Of a DNA stretch of 64,000 nt, positions 1,952 through 27,814 are shown one piece after another (positions within the stretch are counted from its first letter, which is position 1; each line of letters begins with the position of its first letter). The notes beneath the pieces were generated by a model that did no database searches, was not told where the DNA came from, and worked only from the letters and a program-made list of their open reading frames with translations. Source of the DNA: a virus. The position numbers and the translations under genes are program-made. The stretch spans positions 92,984-156,983 of IMG/VR virus record IMGVR_UViG_3300021478_000015; one strand, given 5' to 3'.

Positions 1952-2185
1952 ATGGGAGGAGATGTGAAGGCCAAGTTGGTAACCCGCGCCGAGCTAGCCG
2001 CCCTGGTGGGGCCAGGCCATGCCACCGGGGTGGTCCGCAACGGTTGCTCGCCGGAGGACTGGCGAGTGTGGACCAAGCACGTCGAAGAGCAGGGTCAGCC
2101 CACCCAGCCGAACCGGGCCGGGCGGCGGGCGACCAAGCGCCTCAAGCAGAAGGCCTTGACCAAGAAGCGCATTAGGAGCGCTTGA
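1952..2185 (+). CDS. Small basic hypothetical protein
   Basis: This 77-residue protein ends in a strongly basic helix (NRAGRRATKRLKQKALTKKR), a type of tail often seen in small actinophage proteins and compatible with nucleic-acid or tail-chaperone contacts; the role is not known. Its start is uncertain: GTG at 1964 in the same frame lies too close to a GGAGGAG tract, and the ATG at 1952 has no clear site. The gene overlaps the 3' end of the leftward surface-protein gene by 14 bases. Confidence 0.5.
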   Translation: MGGDVKAKLVTRAELAALVGPGHATGVVRNGCSPEDWRVWTKHVEEQGQPTQPNRAGRRATKRLKQKALTKKRIRSA

Positions 2186-3278
2186 ACCGGCGGGTCAGCA
2201 GCACGATCACCCCACCGGCCATGACCAGCAGCAGGCCCGAGCCCAGGCCCAGGCGGGTGTTGGAGCCGGTGAACGGCAGGGTGCCAGAAGCTGACGCCGG
2301 GGTGACCAGAGCGGGAACAGCGGTCTCCGGGGTGATGGTCTGGACCGCAGGGGTGCCGGGGCCGCCAGGAGTGGTCTGACCCGGCGGGAGCGTGGTGCCC
2401 GAAGGGGCAACGGTGGTGCCCGTGGGGGCAATCGTGGTCGTTGCACTGGGCAGCGTTGTGCCGGTTGGTGCAGTGGTGGTGGCTCCCGGAGCCGTGGTGG
2501 TGGTCACCGCGAACTGGGTGGTGAAGTTGATCACGCACAGGGCGTCCTCACCCTGATCCAGAGTGGTGGAGGCCGGGGTGAAAGAAGCGCTGCCGACACA
2601 GGACCAGCCCGAGTTGGTGTACCCCTCCGACTGGGCCAGAGGAGACAAGGTGTCGAAGAGCCCATAGGTGCCGGGTGGCACCACCGCGAAGGTCACACCA
2701 GGGCTATCGGTGATGCCCGAGAGGCTGACCGGCCCAGAGGCATCCAGAGTGAAGTCAGCCAGGGTGGCCGTACCGCCGTTCACCGTCGCCGCCAGGGTCA
2801 GGATGGTCAGGTTGGGCTGCTCGGTGGTGGTCGTTTCACCAGGCTGCGTGGTAGTGGTCTCGGCCGGTTGGGTGGTGGTCGTTTGCTCCGGCTGAGTAGT
2901 GGTGGTCTCCATGGGTTGCGTAGTGGTGGTCTGTTCCGGCTGAGTAGTAGTGGTTTGCTCTGGTTGGGTGGTGGTCGTTTCGTGTGGCTGAGTGGTGGTG
3001 GTCATCTCAGGCTTGGTGGTGGTGGTCTGGTGCGGCTGCGTGGTGGTCGTTTCCTGCGGTTTGGTCGTTGTCGTTTGATGCGGGTAGGTGGTGGTCGTTT
3101 CGTGTGGTGGCTTGGTGGTGGTGGTCGGATACGTCACCTTGGTGGTGGTGGTGCCGCAGTTGTAGCCACACCCGCCTGGAGGGGCTTGTCCGGCCGAGGC
3201 CGTGCTCGGCTGGAACAACAGGACCACTCCGAGGAGCCCAGCCAGCACGGTGACGACCTGGACAGCGTATTTCCTCAT
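2172..3278 (-). CDS. Secreted LPFTG cell-wall-anchored surface protein with Thr-rich stalk
   Basis: The 368-residue protein has all parts of a sortase substrate. Residues 1-28 form a Sec signal peptide (MRKYAVQ, hydrophobic core, STASAG). Residues 43-154 are a Thr-rich stalk of about thirteen octapeptides. Residues about 156-255 form a prealbumin/SpaA-like beta domain with the pattern ADFTL...PPGTYGLFDTL...WSCVG...LCVINFT. A second Thr/Pro stalk follows, then LPFTG at 334-338, a membrane segment (about 344-362) and the tail RRFKRS. By family knowledge a host sortase would cut at LPFTG and link the protein to peptidoglycan. The ATG is preceded by AAAGGA. The gene runs against its neighbours, which suggests independent control. 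It shares its architecture with the protein at 3741-4589. Why a phage displays such a protein is unknown; receptor masking, superinfection exclusion or lysogenic conversion are possibilities. Confidence 0.85.
   Translation of the reverse strand: MRKYAVQVVTVLAGLLGVVLLFQPSTASAGQAPPGGCGYNCGTTTTKVTYPTTTTKPPHETTTTYPHQTTTTKPQETTTTQPHQTTTTKPEMTTTTQPHETTTTQPEQTTTTQPEQTTTTQPMETTTTQPEQTTTTQPAETTTTQPGETTTTEQPNLTILTLAATVNGGTATLADFTLDASGPVSLSGITDSPGVTFAVVPPGTYGLFDTLSPLAQSEGYTNSGWSCVGSASFTPASTTLDQGEDALCVINFTTQFAVTTTTAPGATTTAPTGTTLPSATTTIAPTGTTVAPSGTTLPPGQTTPGGPGTPAVQTITPETAVPALVTPASASGTLPFTGSNTRLGLGSGLLLVMAGGVIVLLTRRFKRS
2817..3152 (-). repeat. Tandem octapeptide (24-bp) repeat encoding Thr-rich stalk
   Basis: About thirteen in-frame units of the form x-TTTT-(Q/K/Y)-P-x follow one another, for example ETTTTQPH and QTTTTQPE. 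The period is 24 bases. Codon choice varies between units, so the repeat has drifted at the DNA level while the protein pattern is kept. It encodes the membrane-distal stalk of the LPFTG protein. Confidence 0.85.
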
Positions 3279-3347
3279 GGTGTTCCTTTCAGCCTCGATG
3301 CCCTTATTGAGGCGCTGTTATCTTGGCTCTGGTGCTGGACATTAGCA

Positions 3348-3542
3348 ATGGTCAATAATCCCGAGAGACTGCCGGACTTCGAGGCTGGTCCCTGCCCAGC
3401 CTTAGAACGCTGCGTCGATCCTGAGACCTGCGTCGAGCCTCTACGCTGCATGATAGATCGGGCCACGGCGGCCATCGGCAACCCCCGCTTCATGATGATC
3501 GACACCAAGTTCTACTATGTTTATCCCGTTCAGGAGAAATAG
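3348..3542 (+). CDS. Small four-cysteine protein
   Basis: The frame opened at this ATG gives 64 residues with four cysteines spaced exactly six apart (C16, C22, C28, C34; CPALERCVDPETCVEPLRC). The C-terminal half reads like a folded protein (GNPRFMMIDTKFYYVYPVQ). The even spacing could form a metal knuckle or disulfide-linked turns. It lies next to the divergent start of the LPFTG gene and eight bases upstream of the next gene. Function unknown. The longer frame to the left is a shadow of the Thr-rich gene. Confidence 0.5.
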   Translation: MVNNPERLPDFEAGPCPALERCVDPETCVEPLRCMIDRATAAIGNPRFMMIDTKFYYVYPVQEK

Positions 3543-3549
3543 AAACAGG

Positions 3550-3744
3550 ATGACCCGTTGGATCATCGAAGTCTCCCATGATGGGGCCATCGATATCATG
3601 CGGAATGGCAAGGCCTTCGCTTATGACCTCGATGACTACGACGAGGCCTTTGCTCGTATCAAGAAGGACAAGCGCTATCAGAAGGGGGATAGAGTGGAGA
3701 TGGTTGATCCGGATGGATACCGGCGTAAGATCACGTCCCTGTGA
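3550..3744 (+). CDS. Small hypothetical protein
   Basis: The 64-residue product begins MTRWIIEVSHDGAIDIMRNG and has a compact alpha/beta look with a charged end (KKDKRYQKGDRVEMVDPDGYRRK). The start at 3550 was preferred to an ATG at 3517 that would overlap the previous gene; ACAGG lies just upstream. Its stop overlaps the GTG of the next gene. Function unknown. Confidence 0.6.
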   Translation: MTRWIIEVSHDGAIDIMRNGKAFAYDLDDYDEAFARIKKDKRYQKGDRVEMVDPDGYRRKITSL

Positions 3745-4589
3745 AGTGGGCCTCGATAAAGCGTCCGATCATTGCCGCCGGGATTGTCGGATGCTTGATC
3801 GGCATCACCTTGCTGAGCCTGGACGTGACCAAGTCCACAGCCGCTCCCCAGTCGCACGCTGACCCGCTGCTGACCCTGGCCAAGGAGGTCATCAACCTGG
3901 AGGGTGGCACCGCCGTGGCCGCCGACTTCACCTTGATGGCCATCGGCCCGGTCACCGTCTCCGGCCCGGCCAACACCGCCGCGGTCCGTAATCAGCCGGT
4001 GCCGATCGGGACCTACCAGCTACGGGAGTCCGGCCCGGCCAACTACGTCCCCTCGATCTGGGAGTGCCTGGGCAGCTTCGTGTCGTCCACCAGCAACTCG
4101 GTGACCCTGGCCGAGGGCGACAACGCCACCTGCCTGATCACCAACACCTTCCGTCCTCCCACCACCACCACGACCACCACCACCGTGCCGGGCACCACCA
4201 CCACCACGGTGCCGGGGGCGACGACGACCACCACACCGGGTGAGACGACCACCACGGTGCCTCGGTCCACCACTACCGCTGTCCCGGCCACCACCGTGCC
4301 TGAGACTACGGTGCCGGGCGCGCCCACCACTACGCTGCCACCCGAGTTCACCGTGCCGACCGTGCCGGGTCAGACCACCACCACCGTGGCCGTCCCTCCT
4401 TTGCTGCCTCCTGCACCGGGGCCAGGCGCGCCTGCGGCCGCCGGGATCCCCCCGGCTACCCTTCCCCTGGCCTCCACCGGCAGCGATACTGGCCAGTACG
4501 CCGGGATCGGGGTCCTGGCCCTGTTGGCCGGACTGGGCTTGGTGGTCCTCGCCCGCGGCAGGAAGAAGAAGGTGGATGACCACGGCTGA
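3741..4589 (+). CDS. Secreted LASTG cell-wall-anchored surface protein
   Basis: This 282-residue protein is a second sortase substrate. It has a signal peptide or signal anchor (residues about 7-35, IIAAGIVGCLIGITLLSL), a prealbumin/SpaA-like domain (about 42-138: ADFTLMAIGP, IGTYQLRESGP, WECLGS, CLITNTF), a Thr/Pro/Val stalk (139-240), LASTG at 243-247, a membrane segment (about 253-271) and a basic end (RGRKKK). LAxTG motifs are typical of class E sortases of high-GC Gram-positives, whereas its neighbour at 2172-3278 has a classical LPxTG. The GTG start overlaps the upstream stop by four bases. The folded domain is clearly related to that of the leftward protein (same ADFTL, GTY and WxC landmarks), so the pair looks like a duplication that diverged in anchor and orientation. 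Confidence 0.85.
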   Translation: MKWASIKRPIIAAGIVGCLIGITLLSLDVTKSTAAPQSHADPLLTLAKEVINLEGGTAVAADFTLMAIGPVTVSGPANTAAVRNQPVPIGTYQLRESGPANYVPSIWECLGSFVSSTSNSVTLAEGDNATCLITNTFRPPTTTTTTTTVPGTTTTTVPGATTTTTPGETTTTVPRSTTTAVPATTVPETTVPGAPTTTLPPEFTVPTVPGQTTTTVAVPPLLPPAPGPGAPAAAGIPPATLPLASTGSDTGQYAGIGVLALLAGLGLVVLARGRKKKVDDHG

Positions 4590-4785
4590 GATCCCAGACG
4601 GCTTCGAGGAGTGGCTGCACACCGGCATCGAAGCGGGTTACTGCTCCGAGGTGGTGTGCAACACCCATGATGGGCTGCCTTCGTCCGCAGCCGAGGACGC
4701 CGAGTGGGAGGCCGGGGGTGATCCCTGCGTCCCGGCGGTACGGCTGTTCTGGTCCATGGAGACGGGTCAGCGCACCGATGGCTGA
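4576..4785 (+). CDS. Small hypothetical protein
   Basis: The 69-residue protein begins MTTAEIPDGFEEWLHTGIEAG and contains three Cys (CSEVVC and GDPCV) around a short acidic stretch; FEEWLHxGxxxGYCS...C is a pattern met in small actinophage zinc-type proteins. The ATG overlaps the end of the surface-protein gene by 14 bases. Function is unknown. Confidence 0.65.
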   Translation: MTTAEIPDGFEEWLHTGIEAGYCSEVVCNTHDGLPSSAAEDAEWEAGGDPCVPAVRLFWSMETGQRTDG

Positions 4786-5011
4786 CCGGCCCGGCGAGGA
4801 CGAGCTATTGCAGAAGGTGGTGAAGGAGGCCGCCTTGAGGTCCGACACCGACCCCCAGGTCCATGCCGAGATCGAGATGGTCCACCAGATGATGGTCAAG
4901 ATGGTGAACGAGTTCGGGTGGATCGATGACGACGGCCACCCCCTGATCTACACCGCCGCCGCCCTGGCCATCACCCTGCACGATCCTATGGATGGCCACC
5001 CCTTCTTCTGA
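4778..5011 (+). CDS. Hypothetical acidic helical protein
   Basis: The product (77 residues, MADRPGEDELLQKVVKEAAL) is acidic and mostly helical. The chosen ATG overlaps the upstream stop by eight bases; the longer frame from 4667 is shadow. Its TGA is followed immediately by the first copy of the CTGTC/CGAAG element and then the giant protease gene, so it ends the early accessory cluster. Function unknown. Confidence 0.65.
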   Translation: MADRPGEDELLQKVVKEAALRSDTDPQVHAEIEMVHQMMVKMVNEFGWIDDDGHPLIYTAAALAITLHDPMDGHPFF

Positions 5012-5047: not shown

Positions 5048-8000
5048 ATGAAGCACTACGCCGCCCTGGAGATCATCAGCGCTGAGTACGGCGATCAGCA
5101 CTCCCTCCGTCACCTGGCCCATCGGGCGGACTTCACCTACGCGCCACGTCCCGGCTACCTGTACGTCCGCTCCAGGGCCATCAGTTCACGCACGAATGAC
5201 AACTTCGATGACTTCCCGGCCGAGGAGATAGAGAAGGGCTACCGGTCGTTCATCGGGAAGCCAGTGTTCGTTAACCATGTCAACGAGGATCACAAGCGTG
5301 CTCGGGGTGTGGTCATCGATGCCGCCCTGCATCATGATGTGAATCCCAATGGTTCGCCGGATACATGGTGTGAAGTATTGATGGAAGTAGACGCACTACG
5401 CTTTCCGAAGTTGGCTCAAGCGATCGTCCAAGGTCATATCGATCGTACTTCCATGGGTGTTGACGTGGAGTACTCGATCTGTAGTGCCTGTGGTAATAAG
5501 GCCACGAACCCGGCGGAGTATTGTCGTCATATTCCGCAGATGAAGGGCTCGAAGATCGTCCGGCGGAATGCCGCCACCAACCGGCCAGAAGAGACTCTCA
5601 TCTTTGAGACCTGCTATGGGCTGAGCTTCTTCGAGAACTCGTTACTGGTCGAGGATCCCGCCGATCCCACGGCCTACTTCCTGGGCGTGGACGATCGTGG
5701 CCTCAGGATGGCCCAGAAGACCGCACATAGGAAGCTATGTCGGCAATGTCTCACTTCGTCATCATGTGCCGCGTACGGATGTGGGCGTAGCTCAGAGGGC
5801 CTGGGAGCTTTCGTGGCCAGCACACCGGGCAACTTCGACAAGATCCCTCAGCACCACTGGGATTACCTGTCCGATCTGGTGGACCGAGTGGGCCAGCGCG
5901 AGAAGACCCCCAAGGTGTGCTGGCAGGTGTTCTCGGCCATCGATCACAAGCTGGGCTACCCCCAGGAGTCCGGCTACTACCGGGGTGAGGGCCACTACTG
6001 GAATCGCCTGCCGGACGGCTCCATCCTCGATGCCAGCCATGATCAGTTCGAGGAGGACGACGACCCGGTGCGGATCTTCGCCCCTGGTGATCCCGAGCAC
6101 GGCCATTTTAAGACGGCTGTGCGCCACCAGGAGGGCCTGGGAGCCTTCGTGGCGGCCCATGACCTGGACGAGGCTGTGACCTCCTTCAAGCCCTATGCCG
6201 AAGAGCAAGGTTGGCATGATCCGACTTGCGTAGGTGGGCAATGCGACGTGGCCTCGACGGAGTTCGCCCAGCACCTCCATGAGCACGGCATCCCCCATGA
6301 GGTGGTGACCCACTATCCCGAGCCGGGTGGCCCCATGAGCCACAGCGTGGTCGAGGTCGGGGACCACACAGTGGACTGGACGGCTCGCCAGTTTGACCCC
6401 AAGGCGGACTTTCCTCACATCGAGCCCCATCACGTCACCCGCAGTCGCTGGCACCGCACCGAGCCCTACTACGGTGAGATCGAGTATGGCAAGGATTACC
6501 GAGAGGCGTCCTTAGCGGGTGATAAGTCCTGGATCAAAGAGGAGCATGACTACGAGGGTCGTCATGGGGAGCGCCGTCACATCACCCGCACCATGACGGG
6601 AGCATTGCCCACCCATCTGGTCCAGCACTTGATGGGTGTCAAGGGCGAGATACCCGGTGAGCATCGTAATAAGCAAGGTCAGCAATGGGAGGACTTCAAG
6701 TCCGACATCGCTCAGAACGGCATCAAGAACCCCATCTTTATCACCCAGGATCCGGGGGAGCGACCCAAGATCTCCGAGGGCAATCACCGCCGGGACGCGG
6801 CGGTGGAGCTTGGCCATCCCTACGTGCCGGTGGAGATGCGCTACTTCGGTCACGCCGAGCAGGATCCCGACAACCTGGAGGACAAGGCCCAGGCCCACTT
6901 CGATCGGGAGAACCAGATCCGCAGCTTGGGTACTCGCAGGCTCGCCCGTTACGAGCCCGAGCCCGACGCTCCCGAGGAGGGTGAGTACGAGAAGGAGCCC
7001 GATCCTTCGGGTTTCTTCCCCAACGGCATCGCCACCCGTTGGCGACAAGCGCATAAGCCGCTGGTGGCGGACGCCTTGCACGCCTGGAAGGGCGACCCCG
7101 TCAACGCTCTGACTCACTGGCACCACGAACTCAACGACGATCCCCAGCCTGACTCGGGCTCGGGCAAGCAGATGCGAGCCCAGTCCGGGGCTCTGCGCTG
7201 GGAACTTCAAAATAACTCCAAGACGTTCGGACGCAAGCTCTATCGAGGAGTGCCCACCGCCCAGGACCGCCTGCCCAAGGTGGGCGACATCATCGACCAT
7301 GACGACCGGCCGCGGGGCTACTCTTCCAACCGGGCCACGGCTTGGGCCTTCGCCCGCAAGTCGGGCTCCGACCACCTGCGCCGTCCCCTGGTCCCGGTCA
7401 CCTACCAGACCGCGCCGGGCACCCAAGGCCTGCGGATCAAGGACTACGGCACCGGCAGCGGTCTTGATCAGTCCGAGCAGGAGTACGTCCTCCATGGCCA
7501 GCATCAGGTCACCCACGTCGAGTCCACCGACAAGGGCCTCCATGTGCGGACCCGACCGTTACAGAGCTACACGGCCGGGCTCAGAGGCTTTGTGGCCGCA
7601 CGGGGCGATGACCCTGGCCTGGATGAGGCCCTGGACCAGTTGGGAGAGATCCTCTCCCGCCCTTCCCATGCTCCTCCCCCGAAGATCCTGCCCGAGGCCC
7701 ATGAGATGTACGGCGGCTACATCCATGAGCACCCTTCCGGTCACCTGCACGTCTCTGAGGCCCCTGGAGCGCTGTCTAAGCCCCTGGAGAAGCTCTACCG
7801 CATCGTTCACCCTAAGGAGTGGGAGGAGGCCCAGCAGAAGGGCTACCTGCAGTCCAACACGGCCTTCTCGCCGGGTTACACCAGGGCCTCGGCCCAGCCG
7901 GACGAACGCTGGCGGCGGCAATCGGCTGATCCCTCCGAGATTGCCCCCAAGGGCCACACCATAGAGATCGACTACCACCCCGATGACAACTGGCATGCCT

Positions 8001-11000
8001 CGGCCGAGGGCTACGCCGCCACCCGCTCGAAGATCCCGCTCAGCCGGGTCCGCAAGATGGCCAAGACCGAGGTCTCGGTGGCCGGGCTAGCAGTACTGGC
8101 CGCCGATACGGGCCGGGTGCTGATGCTGCAGCGCGCCAACCATGATGTCAAGGATCCGGCTGCGGGCACCTGGGAGTTCCCCGGTGGTCATCTCAACCCC
8201 GACGAAGCGCCAGTCGAGGGGGCTATACGGGAGTGGAAGGAAGAGCTTGGCTGCAAGCTGCCTGCCGGGCATGTCCAGGGCCATTGGATCTCGAAGAAGA
8301 TCTATCAAGGCTTCGTCTATGTCATCGAGCATGAGGACGAGGTTGACATAAACCACGATCATGAGAATCGCCAGGTCCTGAACCCCGATGATCCTGATGG
8401 GGATGAGATCGAGGTGGCGGCCTGGTTCGAGCCCAAGGACCTGCCCGACATGCCTGCCCTGCGCGACGAGGTCAAGAGCGGCACCGACTGGTCCAAGCTC
8501 AAGCTCAAGAAGACGGCCGGACTCGAAGCATTCCTGGCCGCCTACTACCATGTCAGCCCGCACTGGTTGCCATCAGGGACCAAGCTCACCCCCGGCGGGG
8601 GCCGTCGCAACTTCGGGGGCCGGGCCGACAGTGACGCCGTGTACATGGCTGGGTCAGAGGGCGAGGCCGAGCAGTGGGGCAACGCCATGGCCCAGGACGA
8701 GCCCACTGGCCATCTGCACATCTACGAGGTCCAGCCTCACGGCCCGGTCACCCACAGTCAGGGTCATGTGACCATGGACGACTTCCACGATGTGATCGGC
8801 CAGCACGCTGCCCCAGCGGCCACCATCGTCCGCCATCACTACTCCTACGATCCCGAGAGCGGGGAGGCCTTCTATCCCCATGAGGCCGGGCTTGGAGCCT
8901 TGGCGGCGGCCGAACCCACCTTCTACCACGGGACCAGCGACGATCTAGAGCCGGGTAGCCAGCTTTCGGTGGAGGAGGCCACTCGGCGGCAACCAGAGGT
9001 GGCCAAGGCCTTAGAGGATCGGGGTGGTCAGCACATCAGCTTCACCACCGACTACCAGCACGCCCAGATGTACGCCGGGGTCCGCGCCCAGACCCGCGGC
9101 GGGACGCCTCGGGTGTATCGGGTGCAACCAACCGGGGGCTACGAGCCCAACCCCGCCGACGAGAAGTGGCGGGAGGGCAAGCCGCCCATGTCCTTCAGGA
9201 CCAAGGAGCCGGTCACCGTCCTGGGGGAGGCCACGCCACCGAAGCGGCGACGGAAGCAGAGCGGACTGATGGCCTTTGTGGCTGTCAATGCTTCGGATGA
9301 GGTCCCGCCTGAGCCTGGTCTCTCGCCTATCCCTGAGGGCCACGTCCGGCTGTTCCACCAGACCGGCCCGAAGCACGTCGAGTCCATCCGTCAGAACGGG
9401 CTGACCATGGAGCATGCTCGGGCCACCGGAGGGCCGGTCGGGGTGTGGGCCAGCCACGGCACCCGCTTCTATCCCGGCCAGGACCACGCCACGGTGGAGT
9501 TCCACGTCCCCTACAAGGAGCTACAGGACACCGCCGGAGGCCAGTCGCCCCACCGCCATCAGCCCCAGGAGGACTGGGAGCAGTCCAACCACCACACCCT
9601 GGTCATCCCCCGCTCGATCAAGCCCCATGAGATCACCGCCATCCATGAGCCCTGGCACGATCGCTATCGGTACTTCCACAACGAGGGCATGACCGACGAG
9701 GTCAAGCAGGGTGGCTTCGACAACCTGAAGGACATCCCTGACTACGGCCGGGCCATCGACAAGATCAAGAGCGAGGCCAGCCTGCACCTGGCCATGAACA
9801 CCGAGGACGAGGTACCCCCTCGACTGGGCACCGCGCCCATCCCGGAGGGCCATGTGCGCCTCTATCACCACACTTGGTCCAAGAACGTGCCCAGCATCCG
9901 CGAGCACGGTCTCCTGGCCGAGATGGGAAAAGGTGACAGTGGCAAGGGCTACGGCAATGAGCTATCGGCCGGGGTATGGGCGGCTAGTCAGCATCCCGAG
10001 CCTGATCCCCAGAGCGACCGGCATGTGATCGAGTTCCACGCCCACCCCTCCGAGATCGATGTCAACGGGCCTTCTCCTGGCCAGGATGTCCATAAGTGGC
10101 AGCAAGGTGATCACAACGTCTTGATGCGGGGCTCGGTCAAGCCCGAGAACATCCTGGCTATCCATGCCCCCTGGCATACCGCTTATCATCAGATCAACGA
10201 TGATCCCCGCGACCGGGAGGATGTCAAGAACGGCAAGCTGGACTGGGTCCATAACGATCCCTCCATGCCGGGCGTGAGCAAGGCCGTTCACAAGATCCAG
10301 GCCGAGGGGGCGGCCCGGCCCAACATCGGCAAGGGCTGGTGGCTCACCCCCGAGGGCAAGAAGATCGGCGTGTACGACCACTATGAGACGACGCCTGGCA
10401 TGGCTCGTCAGATGATCCGCCCGCACATGGCGGAGAGTGGTCAGGTTAGGGTCCGTAGTTTCAACAATCAACTCAACGTGCAAACGGCCCGTCCCTTCAC
10501 CGATAAGCAGCGTCAGAGTTTGCTGATGGATGCGGACCGACATAGCCGCATGTTTGTGGACGTGCTCCACCCCGATACTGAGGAGTCCATCCACTCCGAG
10601 TCCGGGGGTCCCGAAGAAGCCGATCGCATGCTGGCCCGAGCCCATCGCGCTGCCATCCCCCATGAGGCCAAGAGGGCGGTGCAGGGTGCTCGAAAGGTCA
10701 CTCAGGTGCCCCTGCAACACATCCTCACTCACACCGAGCCCACCGACATGGCTAGCTACGGCCACACCTGGCCGGACGCCTTCCGCGACATCGAGGAGAA
10801 CCATGAGGACTTCGCCCCCAAGCATTGGGGCAAGTTCCTCGATCACGTCCAGGCTCACGGCATCCAGACTCCGGTGGTGATCCTGCATGACGGGGAGCGC
10901 CAGAAGCTGTTCTCCGGCCATCACCGGGTGTGGGCCGCCCACCGTTTGGGCCTCAGCCATGTCCCCGCCTATCACACCGACGATCCCTCCGAGGCCTATG

Positions 11001-14000
11001 ACTTGATGGACGAGCAGGCCGCTCATGAAAGCGATTGGCACAAGCAGGCTGGGCTATCGACCTTCATAGCCATCGAGGCTCACCCTGACAGCTACCATAC
11101 GCTGTATCGAGGATTGCACTTCGGTGAGATTGAGCCACACAATATCGATGACTTCCACAAGAATCCCCAGAAGTACATGGGCCATGAGAAGAATGTTGGG
11201 ATCCATTGGACCGACAATCCGGACTCGGCCTACAACTTTGCCACCGATAGAGATCCCGAAGGCTGGGCGCATGAGGGAGATCCCGATGAGGAGCAGGGAC
11301 ATCTCCACGGCGTGATCCTGGAGGGAAGAGTCCATCCTCGCCACATCATCGACCCGGAGTCTGAGGAGGGCCAGGGCTATGCCATGTCCGACGCCATCCT
11401 GGGCCATGAGCATCCCGAGAACGAGGTGACGGTGCGCGGCGATGCCCGTGTGCATGTCCACAAGATCCACGCCATCACCGAGCACCCCGAGACCGGTGAG
11501 AATCGTTGGACCACCCACAACGTCTCAGAGCATCACTTGGCCGTTCAATATGAAGCCCTCGGTCCTTATCGCAAGATCAACGTCGAAGACATCAAGCGCA
11601 ACATGATCATTCGTCCCAGTTGGGGGCAACATGATTGGACCCGTACTACTGGTGATGCTCAGCATGATCCCGATCATCCTGACGACACTTCGCGTGAGTT
11701 TCCCGATGAGGATGATCCCGATCACGTCAAGATGTACGTGATCCCCATTCACCGGACCTTCACGCCCCATCAGCCTGAGGGGACTCCCTATCACGTCCGG
11801 GTTCGCAAGCAGGCCGGATTGGAGGGCTTCATAGCGGCCCAGGGACCTACCTACTACCAGGGGCGGCGCAGCGATGGCAGCCGGGCTCAGATCGGCGGAG
11901 AGCGGGGTCAGGGCTGGGACGAGCATATGTTCGTGTCCCACGATCCCGAGGTGGCCCGCCTGTACGCCGGGCATCAGGGCAGCGTCCACGCCATCCACAT
12001 GGCCCCCGACACCAAGGTGCTCAAGATCGACCGGGCCAATGGCCCCACCTGGAAGCGCTACGCCAAGGGCACCGAGGGCCAGGGCCTGCTGGACGAGGCC
12101 AAGACCATCGTGGCCCGTGCCGGAGGAGAGGGCTACCACGTTGTGGAGTTCCACCGGCCGCACGATTACATCGGCCACGTCATCCTGGACCGATCCAAGG
12201 TTCAGGGCGAGGAGCATATGGCCGCCGGTCACGGTGATCTCATAGGACGAGGATTACACCTCAATCTCTCCGATGAAGACGGCGATCATGAGCTAGCCAA
12301 TAAGATCTGGGATCATCATCCTGATGCGGCTCGACATCTCCTCCACACTATCCATGACATAGGCGGTGGTCACGCCGGGGCTTGGTGGGGAAGACTTAAT
12401 CCTCAACATCGTGAGTTCAGCACCCATGAGGTCAAGGATTACGCCGAAGGAGGCGAAGGCGGCGAGGAGTTGATGAACAAGTGGCATCCTGAGGCCCATG
12501 ATCCCGAGGAAGGCAATCACGGTTTGCACGGTGGTGTGGATGTCGCCTTGATCGCTCACAACACCCATGGCTGGGACCCCGAGAAGAATCCTCTGGTGGC
12601 GGGCGGGCTCATGGGTAGCTCCTACATCCCCGAGGGCCAGGGCAAGGACATGCCCCTGCACTCGATCCATGTCAACGACGGTAGGGGCTGGCGACGGCTG
12701 CCTCACCCTCCTGGGCTGACCGTGACCGCGGCTGACGATGACGAGGATTGGCGGGGCCTGCACCAGCCCTCGATGGGGCCGCCTATCCACAACCTGCTGG
12801 AGAAGGACGAGGACGGCGGCCAGCTAGCCCCTGACGACATCTACACCCACATGCACTACTACACCGATGGCGAGGCCAACTGGGACAACGAGTCCCACGC
12901 CGCTATCCGCAAGGCCCGTGGTGACATGCCGCTACACCAGCGCCCGGCTGCACCGGCCAAGATGTTCTCGGAGCGAGCCGGTGGGGGCGAGATGAGCCCG
13001 GCCCGAGAAGCTGAAAGCGATGAGGCCTTCGCCCAGCGCCAGCAACGGCGCAAAGACGGTGAGCACCACGTCACCATCTACCGGGCTGCCCCCAAGGGGC
13101 TCAAGTCCATCGGGCCAGGGGATTGGGTCACGCCCTCGCCCAGCTACGCCCGCGACCACGCCCGTCAGGCCAGCGACCCCAAGAAGGACTGGCCGGTCTA
13201 CAAGGCCTCGGTCCCGGCCAAGCATGTGCGCTGGGCCGGGGACTCCCTCAACGAGTTCGGATATTCGGGGCCTGCGGTTAAGCCCACTTACCACACCAGG
13301 GGTGGCACCCAGGCCGAGCGTCTGGCCGCATTCGTGGTCGAGGCTGATCAGCCTTACGCCGGGGGCTACCAGTTCAAGTTCCGCAAGGCCCAACCCAACT
13401 CCATGGAGGCTCAGGCCGATAAGACGCTGAACTATCACCGCCTGGATGCCTTCCATGAGAACACCCAGGATCTTACCCAGGGTCGCGGTGGTCATGCAGG
13501 CTTTCTACTCTGGCATCACAAGACCGGTGAGATCGGCAGTATCGAGACCCTGCCCGAGCATCAGCGTCGAGGGCTGGCCACCGAGATGCTGGACCAGGCC
13601 CGCCAGATCTCCGCCACCACCCGAGGGGTCAAGCCCCCGAAGCACTCCAATCAGCGCACCGACGCCGGGGAGGCCTGGGCACGCTCGACTGGCGACCGGC
13701 TGCCTCGCCGGGTGCAATCCCTGGCCGCCTTCGTGGCTGCCCTGGACCCCTCCGAGATCTCTGAGACCTCACCGGAGGAGTTCCACCGCAACTTCTCCCG
13801 GTCCATCGCCGGTAGCCCCTTCGAGCGTCATGTCACCAACCACACCCCGGAGGAGATCCGCTCCGAGGGTATGAAGCCGCTTACTATCAACCATGGTACG
13901 AGTGGTGTCCTGATCCATGATCACGGGGATGGTAGGATAGAGCCGACAGGACTGTACAACGATCGGGAGAAAGGAGTGAAGGGTGCCGGTATAGATCTTC

Positions 14001-14398
14001 TCAAGCATGCCGTTGAGCATCACGGGGCGAACTACTTTGAGTGTTACGGCCCGCAACTGCCGAAGATGTACGAGAAGCTCGGGTTCCATACCACCGAGAA
14101 GTATCCGTTCGATCCCTCCCAGGCCCATCCGGACTGGGATTACGAGCAGCACAACCACCCTGATTACCACATCATGAGACCGAACGATCCCCAGCAGAAG
14201 ACGGCCGCGCTCCCGGCTGACGTGATCAGTCTTTCCGACGTGGACTGGGACGACCCGGCGGCGGTGGCCGCGTTCAAGGCCCAGACCGAAGCTGAGCTTG
14301 ACGCTGAGGGCGGCCAGGACTGGGTCCACATGACGCCCGAGCAGAAGGAAGCCTCCTGGCAGGCAGCCCTGGCTCAACTCGGGGTCCATCTCCCCTAG
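5048..14398 (+). CDS. Giant prohead-protease-like polyprotein with tandem effector domains
   Basis: This is one uninterrupted frame of 3116 residues. Residues 1-215 resemble capsid maturation proteases: FVNHVNEDH (H77, H82) and TSMGVDV (S135) fit the His/Ser pattern, followed by Cys clusters (C145, C148, C159; then C231, C234, C240, C245). Modules then follow: papain-like C291-H316-D328 and C399-H432-D443; ParB-like (about 515-620, GNHRRDAA); ADP-ribosyltransferase (ART) with R733, S759/S760 and E810/E812; an ART-like module (850-1005); Nudix with a perfect box at 1047-1069; several ART-like modules (1160-1750, 2005-2550); second ParB-like (about 1885-1985, GHHRVWAAHRLG); ART-like YRAAPKGLKS (about 2678); two GNAT-like (about 2760-2890, QRRGLATEML; 2895-3045). 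A motif like (K/R)xAGLxAFVAA recurs between modules. The architecture matches the polyvalent-protein concept for phage proteins packaged and delivered with DNA; cleavage by its own protease is inference. Confidence 0.85.
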   Translation: MKHYAALEIISAEYGDQHSLRHLAHRADFTYAPRPGYLYVRSRAISSRTNDNFDDFPAEEIEKGYRSFIGKPVFVNHVNEDHKRARGVVIDAALHHDVNPNGSPDTWCEVLMEVDALRFPKLAQAIVQGHIDRTSMGVDVEYSICSACGNKATNPAEYCRHIPQMKGSKIVRRNAATNRPEETLIFETCYGLSFFENSLLVEDPADPTAYFLGVDDRGLRMAQKTAHRKLCRQCLTSSSCAAYGCGRSSEGLGAFVASTPGNFDKIPQHHWDYLSDLVDRVGQREKTPKVCWQVFSAIDHKLGYPQESGYYRGEGHYWNRLPDGSILDASHDQFEEDDDPVRIFAPGDPEHGHFKTAVRHQEGLGAFVAAHDLDEAVTSFKPYAEEQGWHDPTCVGGQCDVASTEFAQHLHEHGIPHEVVTHYPEPGGPMSHSVVEVGDHTVDWTARQFDPKADFPHIEPHHVTRSRWHRTEPYYGEIEYGKDYREASLAGDKSWIKEEHDYEGRHGERRHITRTMTGALPTHLVQHLMGVKGEIPGEHRNKQGQQWEDFKSDIAQNGIKNPIFITQDPGERPKISEGNHRRDAAVELGHPYVPVEMRYFGHAEQDPDNLEDKAQAHFDRENQIRSLGTRRLARYEPEPDAPEEGEYEKEPDPSGFFPNGIATRWRQAHKPLVADALHAWKGDPVNALTHWHHELNDDPQPDSGSGKQMRAQSGALRWELQNNSKTFGRKLYRGVPTAQDRLPKVGDIIDHDDRPRGYSSNRATAWAFARKSGSDHLRRPLVPVTYQTAPGTQGLRIKDYGTGSGLDQSEQEYVLHGQHQVTHVESTDKGLHVRTRPLQSYTAGLRGFVAARGDDPGLDEALDQLGEILSRPSHAPPPKILPEAHEMYGGYIHEHPSGHLHVSEAPGALSKPLEKLYRIVHPKEWEEAQQKGYLQSNTAFSPGYTRASAQPDERWRRQSADPSEIAPKGHTIEIDYHPDDNWHASAEGYAATRSKIPLSRVRKMAKTEVSVAGLAVLAADTGRVLMLQRANHDVKDPAAGTWEFPGGHLNPDEAPVEGAIREWKEELGCKLPAGHVQGHWISKKIYQGFVYVIEHEDEVDINHDHENRQVLNPDDPDGDEIEVAAWFEPKDLPDMPALRDEVKSGTDWSKLKLKKTAGLEAFLAAYYHVSPHWLPSGTKLTPGGGRRNFGGRADSDAVYMAGSEGEAEQWGNAMAQDEPTGHLHIYEVQPHGPVTHSQGHVTMDDFHDVIGQHAAPAATIVRHHYSYDPESGEAFYPHEAGLGALAAAEPTFYHGTSDDLEPGSQLSVEEATRRQPEVAKALEDRGGQHISFTTDYQHAQMYAGVRAQTRGGTPRVYRVQPTGGYEPNPADEKWREGKPPMSFRTKEPVTVLGEATPPKRRRKQSGLMAFVAVNASDEVPPEPGLSPIPEGHVRLFHQTGPKHVESIRQNGLTMEHARATGGPVGVWASHGTRFYPGQDHATVEFHVPYKELQDTAGGQSPHRHQPQEDWEQSNHHTLVIPRSIKPHEITAIHEPWHDRYRYFHNEGMTDEVKQGGFDNLKDIPDYGRAIDKIKSEASLHLAMNTEDEVPPRLGTAPIPEGHVRLYHHTWSKNVPSIREHGLLAEMGKGDSGKGYGNELSAGVWAASQHPEPDPQSDRHVIEFHAHPSEIDVNGPSPGQDVHKWQQGDHNVLMRGSVKPENILAIHAPWHTAYHQINDDPRDREDVKNGKLDWVHNDPSMPGVSKAVHKIQAEGAARPNIGKGWWLTPEGKKIGVYDHYETTPGMARQMIRPHMAESGQVRVRSFNNQLNVQTARPFTDKQRQSLLMDADRHSRMFVDVLHPDTEESIHSESGGPEEADRMLARAHRAAIPHEAKRAVQGARKVTQVPLQHILTHTEPTDMASYGHTWPDAFRDIEENHEDFAPKHWGKFLDHVQAHGIQTPVVILHDGERQKLFSGHHRVWAAHRLGLSHVPAYHTDDPSEAYDLMDEQAAHESDWHKQAGLSTFIAIEAHPDSYHTLYRGLHFGEIEPHNIDDFHKNPQKYMGHEKNVGIHWTDNPDSAYNFATDRDPEGWAHEGDPDEEQGHLHGVILEGRVHPRHIIDPESEEGQGYAMSDAILGHEHPENEVTVRGDARVHVHKIHAITEHPETGENRWTTHNVSEHHLAVQYEALGPYRKINVEDIKRNMIIRPSWGQHDWTRTTGDAQHDPDHPDDTSREFPDEDDPDHVKMYVIPIHRTFTPHQPEGTPYHVRVRKQAGLEGFIAAQGPTYYQGRRSDGSRAQIGGERGQGWDEHMFVSHDPEVARLYAGHQGSVHAIHMAPDTKVLKIDRANGPTWKRYAKGTEGQGLLDEAKTIVARAGGEGYHVVEFHRPHDYIGHVILDRSKVQGEEHMAAGHGDLIGRGLHLNLSDEDGDHELANKIWDHHPDAARHLLHTIHDIGGGHAGAWWGRLNPQHREFSTHEVKDYAEGGEGGEELMNKWHPEAHDPEEGNHGLHGGVDVALIAHNTHGWDPEKNPLVAGGLMGSSYIPEGQGKDMPLHSIHVNDGRGWRRLPHPPGLTVTAADDDEDWRGLHQPSMGPPIHNLLEKDEDGGQLAPDDIYTHMHYYTDGEANWDNESHAAIRKARGDMPLHQRPAAPAKMFSERAGGGEMSPAREAESDEAFAQRQQRRKDGEHHVTIYRAAPKGLKSIGPGDWVTPSPSYARDHARQASDPKKDWPVYKASVPAKHVRWAGDSLNEFGYSGPAVKPTYHTRGGTQAERLAAFVVEADQPYAGGYQFKFRKAQPNSMEAQADKTLNYHRLDAFHENTQDLTQGRGGHAGFLLWHHKTGEIGSIETLPEHQRRGLATEMLDQARQISATTRGVKPPKHSNQRTDAGEAWARSTGDRLPRRVQSLAAFVAALDPSEISETSPEEFHRNFSRSIAGSPFERHVTNHTPEEIRSEGMKPLTINHGTSGVLIHDHGDGRIEPTGLYNDREKGVKGAGIDLLKHAVEHHGANYFECYGPQLPKMYEKLGFHTTEKYPFDPSQAHPDWDYEQHNHPDYHIMRPNDPQQKTAALPADVISLSDVDWDDPAAVAAFKAQTEAELDAEGGQDWVHMTPEQKEASWQAALAQLGVHLP

Positions 14399-19531: not shown

Positions 19532-20002
19532 ATGAACATCTTCAAACGGGGGGCTATCGCGCTCGCCGCTCTCGCCATGGCCGGAACTACCGCCGGTTTG
19601 GTCACGGCTCAGGCGGCTTCGGCTGCCCCTCCCACCGTCATCACCGCCACCAGCGTGGAGACCTCGGCCACCTTCCTGGCCCCTGGTCTTGAGGCCCTGA
19701 CCTTCAACCTGTATCAGCCCAGCGTGGTCCCGCCTGGCTTCCGTCTCTTTGCCAGCGTCAGCGAACTCTGCTTGGTCGGTCCTCTCGGCAACGCCCGGTG
19801 CAACTGGCGTCTGACCACCAACGCCCCGCCGCTGCTTCAGCAGCAACTGCGCGGCAACGCTGTCATCCCCCGTATCGGTTTCGGTCAGGCCGGTGCCATC
19901 ACCGGAGGTACCAGGGGTTGGACCGGTGCCCGTGGCGTCTTCCGGTCTCTCAACATCGCTCCCAACGTGGCCAGCAACACCTACGTGTTCTCGACCCCGT
20001 AA
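19532..20002 (+). CDS. Secreted small beta-barrel-like protein
   Basis: The 156-residue product carries a clear Sec signal peptide (MNIFKRGAIALAALAMAG, cleavage near AASA-APP at about residue 31). The mature part is beta-rich with two cysteines (LCLVG, RCNWR) and ends GAITGGTRGWTGARGVFRSL, which recalls the GGTG-x-(F/Y)-x-GARG signature of allene-oxide-cyclase/dirigent-like barrels secreted by actinobacteria. AGAAGGAGC gives a strong ribosome binding site. The gene stands alone between a repeat-bearing leader and a strong terminator, so it is probably a separately regulated unit. A phage-encoded protein exported by the host suggests envelope modification during infection, which is inference. 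Confidence 0.7.
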   Translation: MNIFKRGAIALAALAMAGTTAGLVTAQAASAAPPTVITATSVETSATFLAPGLEALTFNLYQPSVVPPGFRLFASVSELCLVGPLGNARCNWRLTTNAPPLLQQQLRGNAVIPRIGFGQAGAITGGTRGWTGARGVFRSLNIAPNVASNTYVFSTP

Positions 20003-20065: not shown

Positions 20066-20323
20066 ATGGCCACTGGAGCAACCTTCGCTGTCATCAACGG
20101 GCAGATGGTTCAGGTCGGTCTCGACGGGTCGATAGCCCACAAGGCGGTGGTCGGCACCTGCATCAACTGCGGGCAGGCCAACGTGCAACTGGACACCCAC
20201 TACGGCCGTCATGAGAACGTGCGCTATGTTTGCCTGTCCGCCACCCAGCTTCCCTTCATCGACGCCAACCAGAGCGCTCTGCCCGCCAACCAGAAGGGAG
20301 CGGCTCCAAGCAAGCACCGATGA
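20066..20323 (+). CDS. Small zinc-knuckle protein
   Basis: This 85-residue protein has a beta-type first part (TFAVINGQMVQVGLDGSIAHK) and then GTCINCGQ...HYGRH...YVCL, a CxxC...C arrangement that may bind zinc. The same C-terminal signature (GTCINCGQ, HY, YICL) ends the next gene, so the module is shared. Its stop overlaps the next start by four bases (ATGA). Function unknown. Confidence 0.65.
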   Translation: MATGATFAVINGQMVQVGLDGSIAHKAVVGTCINCGQANVQLDTHYGRHENVRYVCLSATQLPFIDANQSALPANQKGAAPSKHR

Positions 20324-21165
20324 CCAATCTCAAGATCAGTACGCTGGTCGATGACTTCAACAGCGGTACATGGAATCCAGCCTTATGGCAAGTCGTCCCC
20401 GCCGATGGTGGAGACATGGTGAACGGTGGTTTTGTCGGTAACGGTGGGTCTGTAGCCGTGGTCGGTGGACAACTGTGCATCACCACTGCCATTAGTGCCG
20501 GTTCTAACTGGCGGTCATTGGAGACTATCGGCCTTTACGATCTGACGAACTCGCAGATCACTATCCAGATGGTTAGTTACGGCGATGATGTCGCGGTGCC
20601 ACAGTTGGATGCCTATCCGATGATCATATTTGATCCATCAGGGGCTTACGATTTTATCTGGACAGAGATCTACGATGGAACCTTGGTGATATGGGATGGG
20701 CAGGGTATTGGTGCATCACTTGCCTACGATCCCGCCGTTCACAAATGGTTTCGGGTGTGGGAGTCCAGTGGTACTTACGGCTTCGACCACTCGATAGATG
20801 GCCTGACCTGGACGAACATCTACACCAGCGGCAGTGATCCCTTCGATCTAAGTGCTGTGAAGTTTGCTATCTGTTCCGGCAACGGTCAAGGAGTAGCGAC
20901 AGCAGCCACAACTTCCATCTTCGACAACGTCAATGTTCTGCCCCCACAGAAGCTCCACTACACCGAGCGCAACGGTGTCCTGGTCCAGGATGGGCTCAAC
21001 CCCCTCCAGGGTATCCAGGACCCCGGCCCCGGCACCTGCATCAACTGCGGCCAGTACATCCCCAAGCTGAACCATCATTACTCGCAGTACTTCGGCTACA
21101 TCTGCTTGCCGCCCTGGCAGCCCAACGGCACCGACCCCAGGCCCATCACCGTTCCCACTTCCTGA
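20320..21165 (+). CDS. Concanavalin-like lectin domain protein with C-terminal zinc knuckle
   Basis: The 281-residue protein begins MTNLKISTLVDDFNSG; the longer upstream frame is shadow. Residues about 8-220 are a jelly-roll, DUF1349/LamG-like module with landmarks DDFNSGTWNPALW, YDLTNSQITIQM, HKWFRVWESSGTYGFD and DGLTWTNIY. The same landmarks appear three times in the giant fibre at 30467-36118. The last 60 residues repeat the knuckle of the upstream small protein (GTCINCGQ...HHYSQYFGYICL). A carbohydrate-binding virion or head-fibre protein is likely. GC drops in the lectin part (20330-20950) and rises in the knuckle, consistent with a domain fusion. Confidence 0.7.
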   Translation: MTNLKISTLVDDFNSGTWNPALWQVVPADGGDMVNGGFVGNGGSVAVVGGQLCITTAISAGSNWRSLETIGLYDLTNSQITIQMVSYGDDVAVPQLDAYPMIIFDPSGAYDFIWTEIYDGTLVIWDGQGIGASLAYDPAVHKWFRVWESSGTYGFDHSIDGLTWTNIYTSGSDPFDLSAVKFAICSGNGQGVATAATTSIFDNVNVLPPQKLHYTERNGVLVQDGLNPLQGIQDPGPGTCINCGQYIPKLNHHYSQYFGYICLPPWQPNGTDPRPITVPTS

Positions 21166-25037: not shown

Positions 25038-26651
25038 ATGGCGCTGTATCCGCCGCTGTGGATGCAGGAGGGCACCTATCCGGCCAACCTGGACCGGTTC
25101 TTCATCCAGGACGCCCTGGGACCCGGCCCAGCCCTTCTGAGTGGCTCTGGAGCCCTCCAGGTGACCCAACGGGCCGCCGGGACCAATATGTCGGTGGACG
25201 TGGCTGCAGGGCGAGCTTTGATCCCCGGCACCGACATCGCCAACCAGGGGGCCTACACCATCTGGTCCGACACCGTGGTCAACGTGCCCATCGCCGTCGC
25301 GCCGGGGGTGGGCACCGCCCGTATCGATCTGATCGTGGCTCAGGTTCGCGACGACTTCGTCATCGGTGGAGGCCGCAGCGACTTCGTCATCGTCCCCATC
25401 CAGGGCACCGCCGCTGTCACTGGTTCGCAGGTAGCTCCGGCCGTTCCATCTAGCACCTTGGTCTTGGCCCAGATCCTGGTCGGATCCAATGTTCCGGCCA
25501 TCCTCAACTCCTTCATCACCGACGTGCGGCCTTATGCCCGTGCCGCGAACACCCAGCTACTGGTCAGCCGTCCCCTGGCCTCTCTGATCACGGCGGGGTC
25601 GCCTTACACGGTCAACCACAACCTGAACACCACCAGCCTGATCGTGGATATCTGGGACACGGTGACCAATCAGCGCATCATGGCCAACGTGGCCATCGTG
25701 GACGCCAACAACATCTCGGTGTCGGTGACCCAGAACGCCCCCAACCCGGTCAACGTGGTCATCATGGGCACCTCGGTGGCCCCCACCATGGTGTTGCCCT
25801 CGAACCTGGCCACCGTCCAGTACGTCCAGCAGCAACTGACCCAGGCGTACAACTTCGCCTTCATGCAGACCATTGCTTCGCCCACGGCCGCGGGCTCGCC
25901 TTACAGCATCGCCCACAACCTCAATACCACCAACGTCTTTGTCGAGATCTGGGACGCCGTCACCAACCAGCTTGTGATGACTCAGATCAACATCGTGGAT
26001 GTCAATCACATCTCGATCACAGTGGCTCAGAACATGCCCAACTCCATCAACGTGGTGGTCATGGGCGTGGGTAATGCCCCTCTGCCACTCAACCCCTCTA
26101 ACACCGCCACCAAGCAGTATGTCGATTCTAAGACGCCCACTCTTCCGGCTGCGGTTACCACTGGTGCCACCATTCAGAGCTTCACCGATTCGTTGGGCGA
26201 TGTGTGGGTGGCTCTCAACGGTGTTAACGGTGGGAACTGGAGGCGAGCCCGTGATGTCTTGCACTCCGCCGTTTATCGCAATGCTGCCTGGACTACTTCC
26301 AATGCTAATACTCCAATAGCCTTTGACACTGTTATTAAGGACGACTACGGCCTCTGGGTTTCTCCTAGCTGGACTGCGCCTGTAGCGGGGTGGTACGACA
26401 TTTATGGTCAGTATGAGGCCACGCCTGCGGCTGCTGGTAACTTGTTTAACATCTTCATTGGTGCGGGCGTATCCGCATATCAGTCTACGTTTGCGAGGGC
26501 AGTCGAGACCACGGCGGCTCGAACTCATGCCTCTCTCTACTTGGCCGCGGGTGGACAGGGTCAAGTTGTCCTTCAAACCACGGCGGCCTACACAGGAAGC
26601 ACTGGTAACCAGTCTACTTGTGGCCGCTTTCACTATATGGGATCGGGCTGA
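25038..26651 (+). CDS. Tail fibre with C-terminal C1q-like tip
   Basis: The 537-residue protein has an N-terminal baseplate-attachment-like domain (residues 1-175, YPPLWMQEGTYPANLDR). Two tandem beta modules follow (about 180-250 and 280-350; each SPYxxxHNLNTTxxxVxIWDxVTNQ), then the tip (about 365-537) starting TLPAAVTTGATIQSFTDSLGDVWVALNGVNGG. The tip contains VAGWYDIYGQY and ends FHYMGSG, consistent with a C1q/TNF-like jelly roll. The tip is repeated as stand-alone proteins by the six genes that follow. GC drops at about 26120, exactly where the tip begins, supporting domain replacement. It is probably the receptor-binding fibre or its carrier. Confidence 0.75.
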   Translation: MALYPPLWMQEGTYPANLDRFFIQDALGPGPALLSGSGALQVTQRAAGTNMSVDVAAGRALIPGTDIANQGAYTIWSDTVVNVPIAVAPGVGTARIDLIVAQVRDDFVIGGGRSDFVIVPIQGTAAVTGSQVAPAVPSSTLVLAQILVGSNVPAILNSFITDVRPYARAANTQLLVSRPLASLITAGSPYTVNHNLNTTSLIVDIWDTVTNQRIMANVAIVDANNISVSVTQNAPNPVNVVIMGTSVAPTMVLPSNLATVQYVQQQLTQAYNFAFMQTIASPTAAGSPYSIAHNLNTTNVFVEIWDAVTNQLVMTQINIVDVNHISITVAQNMPNSINVVVMGVGNAPLPLNPSNTATKQYVDSKTPTLPAAVTTGATIQSFTDSLGDVWVALNGVNGGNWRRARDVLHSAVYRNAAWTTSNANTPIAFDTVIKDDYGLWVSPSWTAPVAGWYDIYGQYEATPAAAGNLFNIFIGAGVSAYQSTFARAVETTAARTHASLYLAAGGQGQVVLQTTAAYTGSTGNQSTCGRFHYMGSG

Positions 26652-27244
26652 TGTCGCTCATTCCCACCTACGCCCCTCCGGACAACCTTCCGGCTCCGCT
26701 CACATACGGCGGCATCCAGTCGTACACCGACATCTACGGCGACGTGTGGGTGGCCCTGGTCGGGGTCAATGGAGGAGCCTGGAGACGAGCCAAGGATGTC
26801 CTCTTCAGCCACGTCTATCGCGTCGCTGCTCTGAACTTGACGGCTGGCGGTGCCACCACGCTTATGGATGGCACGATCTCGGACAACTATAGTCTGTACA
26901 ATCCCGGCTTCCAAAGCGGAGTGGGTGCCTACATCATCCCGGTAGCAGGCTGGTACGAAGCTGTCCATCAAGTGGGAGGCACTGCCACTGCGGTCGGTCA
27001 GCAGATGGATGCTCGCATCTATAACAACGGTGTTTTGATGAGCGTGGCCAGGGTGCATACCACGCTGGCCACCAGTTTCTCAGCCATAACAACGTACTTG
27101 GGCCTCTGCAATGTCAATGACTACGTGCAGCCTTGGGACTACTGCAGCGCCACCATAGCGGCCATTGTGGGCTCGGGTACCCCGCCGAGCTTCGGTCCAG
27201 GGTACTGGACCTATTCCATCCTTCGATACCGGGGGACGGGCTGA
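26651..27244 (+). CDS. C1q-like fibre-tip protein, array member 1
   Basis: The 197-residue protein repeats the tip of the upstream fibre: PTYAPPDNLPAPL, then GGIQSYTDIYGDVWVALVGV, WRRAKDVLF, IPVAGWYEAV, and the end LRYRGTG. It lacks the attachment domain, so it must join another protein to reach the virion. The ATG overlaps the previous TGA by one base, indicating coupled translation. Confidence 0.7.
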   Translation: MSLIPTYAPPDNLPAPLTYGGIQSYTDIYGDVWVALVGVNGGAWRRAKDVLFSHVYRVAALNLTAGGATTLMDGTISDNYSLYNPGFQSGVGAYIIPVAGWYEAVHQVGGTATAVGQQMDARIYNNGVLMSVARVHTTLATSFSAITTYLGLCNVNDYVQPWDYCSATIAAIVGSGTPPSFGPGYWTYSILRYRGTG

Positions 27245-27810
27245 TGAGCCTAATCCCCACTTACGCTATCCCCGACAGTCTTCCGCCTCCGGTTATCTCT
27301 GGTACCACCGTGCAGTCATTCACCGACGTGTGGGGCGATGTGTGGATAGCCAAGAACGGGGTCTATGGAGGAGCTTGGAAACGGGCGCGGGACACCCTCT
27401 ACGGCAAGTGGTATCGCAATGCTGCCTTCACGTTGCCAGCGGGGCAGGCCGCGGTCCCACTTGATAGCACTACCCGAGATCCCTACAGCATGTACACCAA
27501 TCCTGCCGGTAGTGCTGCGTATCCGCCTATTTCAGGTCTGTATGACATTCTCTGGCAGGTTACGGCTAATGCTACTGCTAGCGGTCAGTGGGTACAACCT
27601 CGGTTTTTCATCAATGGTATGCTGATGGGTGTTTCTCAGTCTTATGCCTCTTCGGTTAACGCCTTTAGCAGTGTCATAAGCCAGCAGTTTGTTCTCCATG
27701 TGGGAGATTACATACAGTTCTACGACAACGCTAGTACTGCGTTGGCAGCAGGAGTAGGCGCTCCGGGTTACTGGACTTACGCCACCGTCGAGTACTACGG
27801 AACGGGGTGA
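27244..27810 (+). CDS. C1q-like fibre-tip protein, array member 2
   Basis: The 188-residue product (SLIPTYAIPDSLPPPVISG) has the same core IQ/VQSFTDVWGDVWIAKNG, WKRARDTLYGKWYRNAA, SGLYDILWQV and end VEYYGTG. It is coupled to the preceding gene by a one-base stop/start overlap. GC is lower than in the surrounding structural genes. It is closest in sequence to array members 1 and 3. Confidence 0.7.
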   Translation: MSLIPTYAIPDSLPPPVISGTTVQSFTDVWGDVWIAKNGVYGGAWKRARDTLYGKWYRNAAFTLPAGQAAVPLDSTTRDPYSMYTNPAGSAAYPPISGLYDILWQVTANATASGQWVQPRFFINGMLMGVSQSYASSVNAFSSVISQQFVLHVGDYIQFYDNASTALAAGVGAPGYWTYATVEYYGTG

Positions 27811-27814
27811 TGTC

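Follow-up and report, generated by a model that had tools for sequence, protein, structure and literature searches.

Two phage-encoded SpaA_2 proteins with predicted sortase-type sorting signals in an apparently virulent actinobacterial myovirus

The window, a stretch of 64,000 nucleotides, comprises bases 92,984-156,983 of a 156,983-base viral record and carries two genes for predicted surface proteins, P0001 and P0002. P0001 (2172-3278, minus strand; 368 aa) is laid out as a signal peptide, a Thr/Pro stalk, a SpaA_2 domain of prealbumin-like type, a second Thr/Pro stalk, LPFTG, a hydrophobic helix and the tail RRFKRS. On that strand its predicted signal peptide occupies residues 1-29 (3192-3278, ending at an ASA-G junction), the first stalk is built of about 12 copies of a 24-bp unit encoding TTTTxPxx repeats (2814-3152), the SpaA_2 domain covers residues 156-250 (2529-2813), and the sorting motif, residues 334-338 (2265-2279), is followed by the membrane helix and basic tail (2175-2264). 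The domain matches PF19403 at 54.5 bits (E 1.8e-14, gathering cut-off 25). With the Pfam anchor profile P0001 reaches 15.7 bits, under the cut-off of 20, and it likewise misses that of TIGR01167; despite these scores, LPFTG, a hydrophobic stretch and the RRFKRS tail can be read directly off the sequence. The gene is one of 27 on the minus strand among 205 called, opposite to its neighbours, and has a ribosome-binding-like AAAGGA of its own upstream. A sigma-70 scan, which covers actinobacterial promoters poorly, gave no promoter-like site for it, and no homologue of P0001 was found in the relatives compared.

P0002 (3741-4589, plus strand; 282 aa, GTG start) has a simpler order: a predicted signal peptide (residues 1-35, 3741-3845), a SpaA_2 domain (residues 44-133, 3870-4139), a Thr/Pro stalk (4152-4460), LASTG (residues 243-247, 4467-4481) and a membrane helix with the basic tail RGRKKKVDDHG (4482-4586). 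It matches PF19403 at 82.9 bits (E 2.5e-23, gathering cut-off 25) and the LPXTG-anchor family TIGR01167 at 17.1 bits, above the cut-off of 15.9. An earlier note on this DNA had described two anchored proteins of this kind, one gene being reversed, and both the strands and the layout of SpaA_2 domain, stalk and C-terminal sorting signal agree with it. Both N-termini satisfy a hydrophobicity rule for signal peptides, the calls being made by that rule and by eye only.

Each protein ends in an LPxTG-like motif, a helix and a basic C-terminal tail. A rule demanding these three elements in order was applied to 15 phage records (the phage's own and its relatives). Of their 1,438 called genes that encode 100 aa or more it passed 2, namely P0001 and P0002, and of 28,760 shuffled control proteins it passed 7. 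The two sorting signals are thus more than chance.

The kinship of the folded domains, also claimed in the note, holds at the domain level, where a two-sequence alignment gives about 42% identity and 40 invariant columns; in a whole-protein BLASTP comparison the stalks alone align. A common origin of the two phage domains was considered; a tree of SpaA_2 domains leaves their sister relation unresolved and places both on long branches. The fold assignment of both domains rests on Pfam and PDB sequence profiles, and by the PDB profile matches the closest solved structures are collagen adhesion and pilus proteins.

The best cellular relatives of the SpaA_2 domains come from Actinomycetota, with others in Acidobacteriota, Chloroflexota and elsewhere. 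Several of these cellular proteins end in a sorting signal, in L190 and L195 after a Pro/Thr stalk. By sequence, the cellular relatives can be classed as proteins of adhesin type that are anchored in the wall of Actinomycetota. The SpaA_2-LPxTG proteins of that phylum (L190, L195 and L184 among them) have both the domain family and the sorting signal in common with the phage proteins, and L190 and L195 the stalk as well; they are, however, bacterial genes, many with SpaA_2 arrays, whereas the phage proteins have one domain each. 

SpaA_2 is among the isopeptide families that have a Lys-Glu-Asn triad, and disulphides have been reported in it (PMC12617251, 2025). All three triad residues are present in 65 of 66 cellular SpaA_2 domains, a sample drawn by similarity. 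P0002 keeps the triad as K48, E96 and N135, the last lying just outside the Pfam match; P0001 has T, D and F at these positions instead. A Cys pair is kept in both phage domains (C109 and C131 in P0002). By the Lys-Glu-Asn signature of an isopeptide-locked CnaB-type domain, P0002 thus qualifies and P0001 does not. Because all three triad residues are kept, P0002 is a candidate viral isopeptide domain, and as such it bears on a gap pointed out in 2025, when the predicted viral structures of the BFVD set were scanned and yielded no hit for such domains (PMC12617251).

The cellular relatives also give weight to the main rival of the interpretation that we develop below, namely that the proteins serve adhesion and make infected cells adhere to one another, to uninfected cells or to surfaces, with the benefit that released virions find new hosts or that the infected cell stays in its niche. 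Cellular SpaA_2 proteins are stalked and anchored, several with tandem domains, the solved structures closest by profile are the collagen adhesion and pilus proteins noted above, and isopeptide domains have been linked with fibrillar adhesins (PMC12617251). Yet P0001 and P0002 have one SpaA_2 domain apiece, where many cellular proteins have long arrays, and no separate ligand-binding domain was recognised in either. We regard adhesion as a serious possibility, albeit clearly a minority one.

The genomic setting ties P0002 closely to the phage. A 64-aa gene (3550-3744, plus strand) that is conserved in related phages, where it stands directly before the gene for the head maturation protease, separates P0001 from P0002. 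The GTG start of P0002 overlaps the stop of this gene, and the next gene begins within the end of P0002. Two small genes of 69 and 77 aa (4576-5011, plus strand), for which no homologue was found in the relatives compared, belong to the same inserted block as P0002, and the block is flanked on the right by the gene for the 3116-aa protease (5048-14398, plus strand). The third-position G+C of the two surface-protein genes, 0.78 and 0.87, falls inside the range of the phage, whose mean is 0.80 (s.d. 0.08). P0002 is part of a phage operon and its codon use is phage-like. In five related records (G002, G004, G009, G015 and G018) the 64-aa gene has a homologue 36-222 nt ahead of the protease gene, the 36 nt being that of G002, whose protease N-terminus is 85% identical; in the window the same gap measures 1,304 nt and holds P0002 and the two small genes. 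P0001 and P0002 are both lineage-specific cargo, and the insertion site is empty in related phages. The protease itself is fused to NUDIX, ParB-like and acetyltransferase domains and two Arr-type ADP-ribosyltransferase stretches, and its length varies widely across related phages, from 501 to 3240 aa as called.

Two alternatives turn on this setting. The proteins might be virion components, decoration or fibre, whose sorting-like tails are fortuitous, as the location of P0002 in a head-gene operon would allow; immunoglobulin-like folds do occur on phage heads. Against this, both proteins have the full set in the correct order, from a predicted signal peptide by way of stalk and motif to the helix and the basic tail, the relatives are cell-wall proteins, and closely related phages lack the genes. 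The architecture thus speaks for the note's view that these are not virion proteins, and we consider a virion role very unlikely. Alternatively, the locus could be neutral cargo or an assembly artefact, that is, recently captured genes without function or host DNA joined to phage. The genes occur in one record only, and a near-identical record, G001, ends before the locus. A conserved phage gene nevertheless lies between the two SpaA genes, the start and stop overlaps and the codon use fit the phage, and both reading frames are intact, all of which makes such a reading quite improbable.

The record of about 157 kb has a head protein, tail sheath, baseplate wedge, portal and endolysin that match known phage families. 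The tail sheath is nearest, at ~35% identity, to those of myoviruses of Mycobacterium, Rhodococcus and Gordonia, and together with the baseplate protein it upholds the earlier assignment to the myoviruses. A scan of viral contigs found 196 related stretches matching the head protein. The genome is circularly permuted, as G001, a 58.7-kb record almost identical across most of the shared part, spans the ends of the window's record. Alongside head, tail and lysis genes, the phage encodes a ribonucleotide reductase (RNR), the thymidylate synthase ThyX, RecA, helicases and nucleotide metabolism. Neither a tRNA nor a sortase was found in the record; nor was an integrase or resolvase, there or among the proteins scanned with Pfam. 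From this gene content we read the record as what looks to be a large virulent phage, an actinobacterial myovirus whose host lives in soil or water.

This lifestyle bears on a further alternative, lysogenic conversion, in which the genes would serve a dormant phage. An orientation opposite to the neighbours, as in P0001, is a typical trait of cargo genes in prophages. There is also a precedent in SasX (SesI), an LPXTG surface protein encoded on the staphylococcal prophage phiSPbeta (PMC8655729), from which it follows that phages can carry LPXTG proteins. SasX is, like P0001 and P0002 as judged from their genes, phage-carried, of host type and of the sortase-anchored kind. It is, however, a single gene of a temperate phage of Firmicutes, whereas here an apparently virulent actinobacterial myovirus carries two genes, with SpaA_2 domains and with LAxTG as well as LPxTG. 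Since the search for an integrase or resolvase across the record and the Pfam-scanned proteins found none, and the genes present are those of a large phage with a virulent lifestyle, display on a lysogen, which the note had entertained, is not supported, and we hold lysogenic conversion to be unlikely.

Such proteins are indeed rare among related phages, as the note had supposed. SpaA_2 was found in 0 of 47 related records, in a search that gave no match in any control genome either; in a separate search this family had matched the phage's own record. Among 40 records searched with the LPXTG-anchor profile, the phage's own alone exceeded the cut-off, and in a survey of 27 records (2.80 Mb, 3,450 called genes) the full sorting architecture was confined to P0001 and P0002. 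Pattern scans of viral contigs with P0002, A1 and A6 as queries gave no SpaA_2 relatives, tblastn against 50,697 phage records gave no match for the SpaA_2 proteins, and PHROGs has no family for them; some of the collections searched for viral relatives may omit records very near the window's own. Sorting-like matches of 48, 54 and 71 aa in related phages were discarded as short, and a weak anchor-profile match in G046 as below the cut-off. A literature search that had most subscription journals outside its range turned up no description of a virulent phage with a sortase-anchored protein.

Export as such is more common in this group. Several of the related phages carry predicted lipoproteins or other secreted proteins, so envelope cargo recurs. 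In one relative, G040:C1:64031-64792 (L162:4031-4792; also L204) encodes a 253-aa exported protein with a Pro/Thr stalk that ends exactly after LPVTG; a hairpin with a T run lies downstream, so that no helix or tail is coded there, and the protein looks like one whose sorting signal has been cut short. Within the window, the gene at 19532-20002 and G000:C1:86457-86999 (minus strand) encode small exported proteins that are 46% identical over their first 50 residues and unlike in their mature parts, a pattern that would fit the reuse of a single signal peptide.

Other parts of the phage also show variable or duplicated genes. The window's phage and G001 are 99-100% identical over most of their shared DNA, yet 20366-20915 of the window, within a gene at 20320-21165, has no alignable sequence in G001 and the proteins are 49% identical, which suggests a swapped or fast-changing gene. 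Five tandem genes at 26651-29534, of about 190-200 aa, look like paralogues with similar starts (for example MSLIPTYA); a further three, each about 331 aa long, lie at G000:C1:70310-73302. A 20-gene minus-strand block at about 40.6-52.2 kb of the record includes an ArdC-type antirestriction protein with a zincin domain (G000:C1:41831-42889, minus strand) and a fusion of HNH nuclease and ResIII helicase (G000:C1:47054-48949, minus strand).

Anchoring of P0001 and P0002 would call on an enzyme of the host. LAXTG motifs have been assigned to class E sortases and LPXTG motifs to classes A and C (PMC5148588). Among the SpaA_2-bearing actinobacterial genomes checked, a sortase was present in all nine (9/9), and in 8/9 the class E cut-off was passed. 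In G276 and G367, genomes whose completeness is not stated, the sole sortase found is of class E, although the sorting motifs of their SpaA_2 proteins are LPATG and LPSTG. Because class E alone is here paired with LPxTG ends, two motifs do not prove two enzymes. The note's contrast between LPFTG and LASTG is real, while its claim that they point to different sortase classes is weakened, and one host enzyme could serve both. A matching sortase is assumed for the host of this phage.

We propose a model where wall-anchored surface proteins of actinobacteria were the source, or the pattern, of both genes. In the infected cell, both proteins would be exported via the Sec pathway, and a host sortase would cut at the motif and join each to peptidoglycan; for LASTG, and possibly for LPFTG as well, this would most simply be an enzyme of class E. 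The infected cell would then display SpaA_2 domains on Thr/Pro stalks, P0002 with an outermost isopeptide domain that could lock itself and P0001 with an unlocked domain mid-stalk. Anchoring by the host is, we infer, the most economical reading of the protein anatomy, and viral proteins are probably displayed on the exterior of infected cells. The most likely use would be to change what other phages or cells meet at the infected-cell surface. We lean, with confidence only just past the midpoint, towards this account as a whole: captured host-type proteins, exported in infection and anchored by host sortase, that alter the infected-cell surface, most likely for superinfection exclusion or receptor masking.

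Blocking of superinfection or masking of the receptor is possible as the leading role, and by analogy exclusion would have close counterparts in Ltp and in CwpV, the latter not sortase-anchored. Ltp of the Streptococcus thermophilus phage TP-J34 is a phage lipoprotein shown on the host cell exterior that confers superinfection exclusion (PMC3952083), and CwpV of Clostridioides difficile is a wall protein that blocks phage after adsorption (PMC4737114). Ltp, however, is a lipoprotein of a temperate phage with no known domain in common with P0001 and P0002, and CwpV is host-encoded, whereas P0001 and P0002 are encoded by the phage. As P0002 lies within the head-gene operon, adjoining the head maturation protease, it may be made late; late production would count against an exclusion role, since blocking a second phage matters least then.

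It is tempting to go further and to speculate that a virulent phage uses the host's class E sortase to coat the host wall covalently with an adhesin domain locked by its own isopeptide bond. We put this forward tentatively and think it doubtful in full; if true, it would be an early case both of a virus-encoded protein with an isopeptide bond and of a lytic infection that remodels the cell surface through a sortase. What is new here is that phage-borne surface proteins with sortase signals occur as a pair, bear SpaA_2 domains and belong to a phage that looks lytic. To our knowledge, phage proteins on the host exterior come mainly from prophages and are mainly lipoproteins or membrane proteins, and a phage that looks strictly lytic is an unusual bearer of them. 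Use of the host's sortase by a lytic phage would broaden this picture, and the borrowed enzyme would offer a testable route by which a phage may change the surface of the cell that it is killing.
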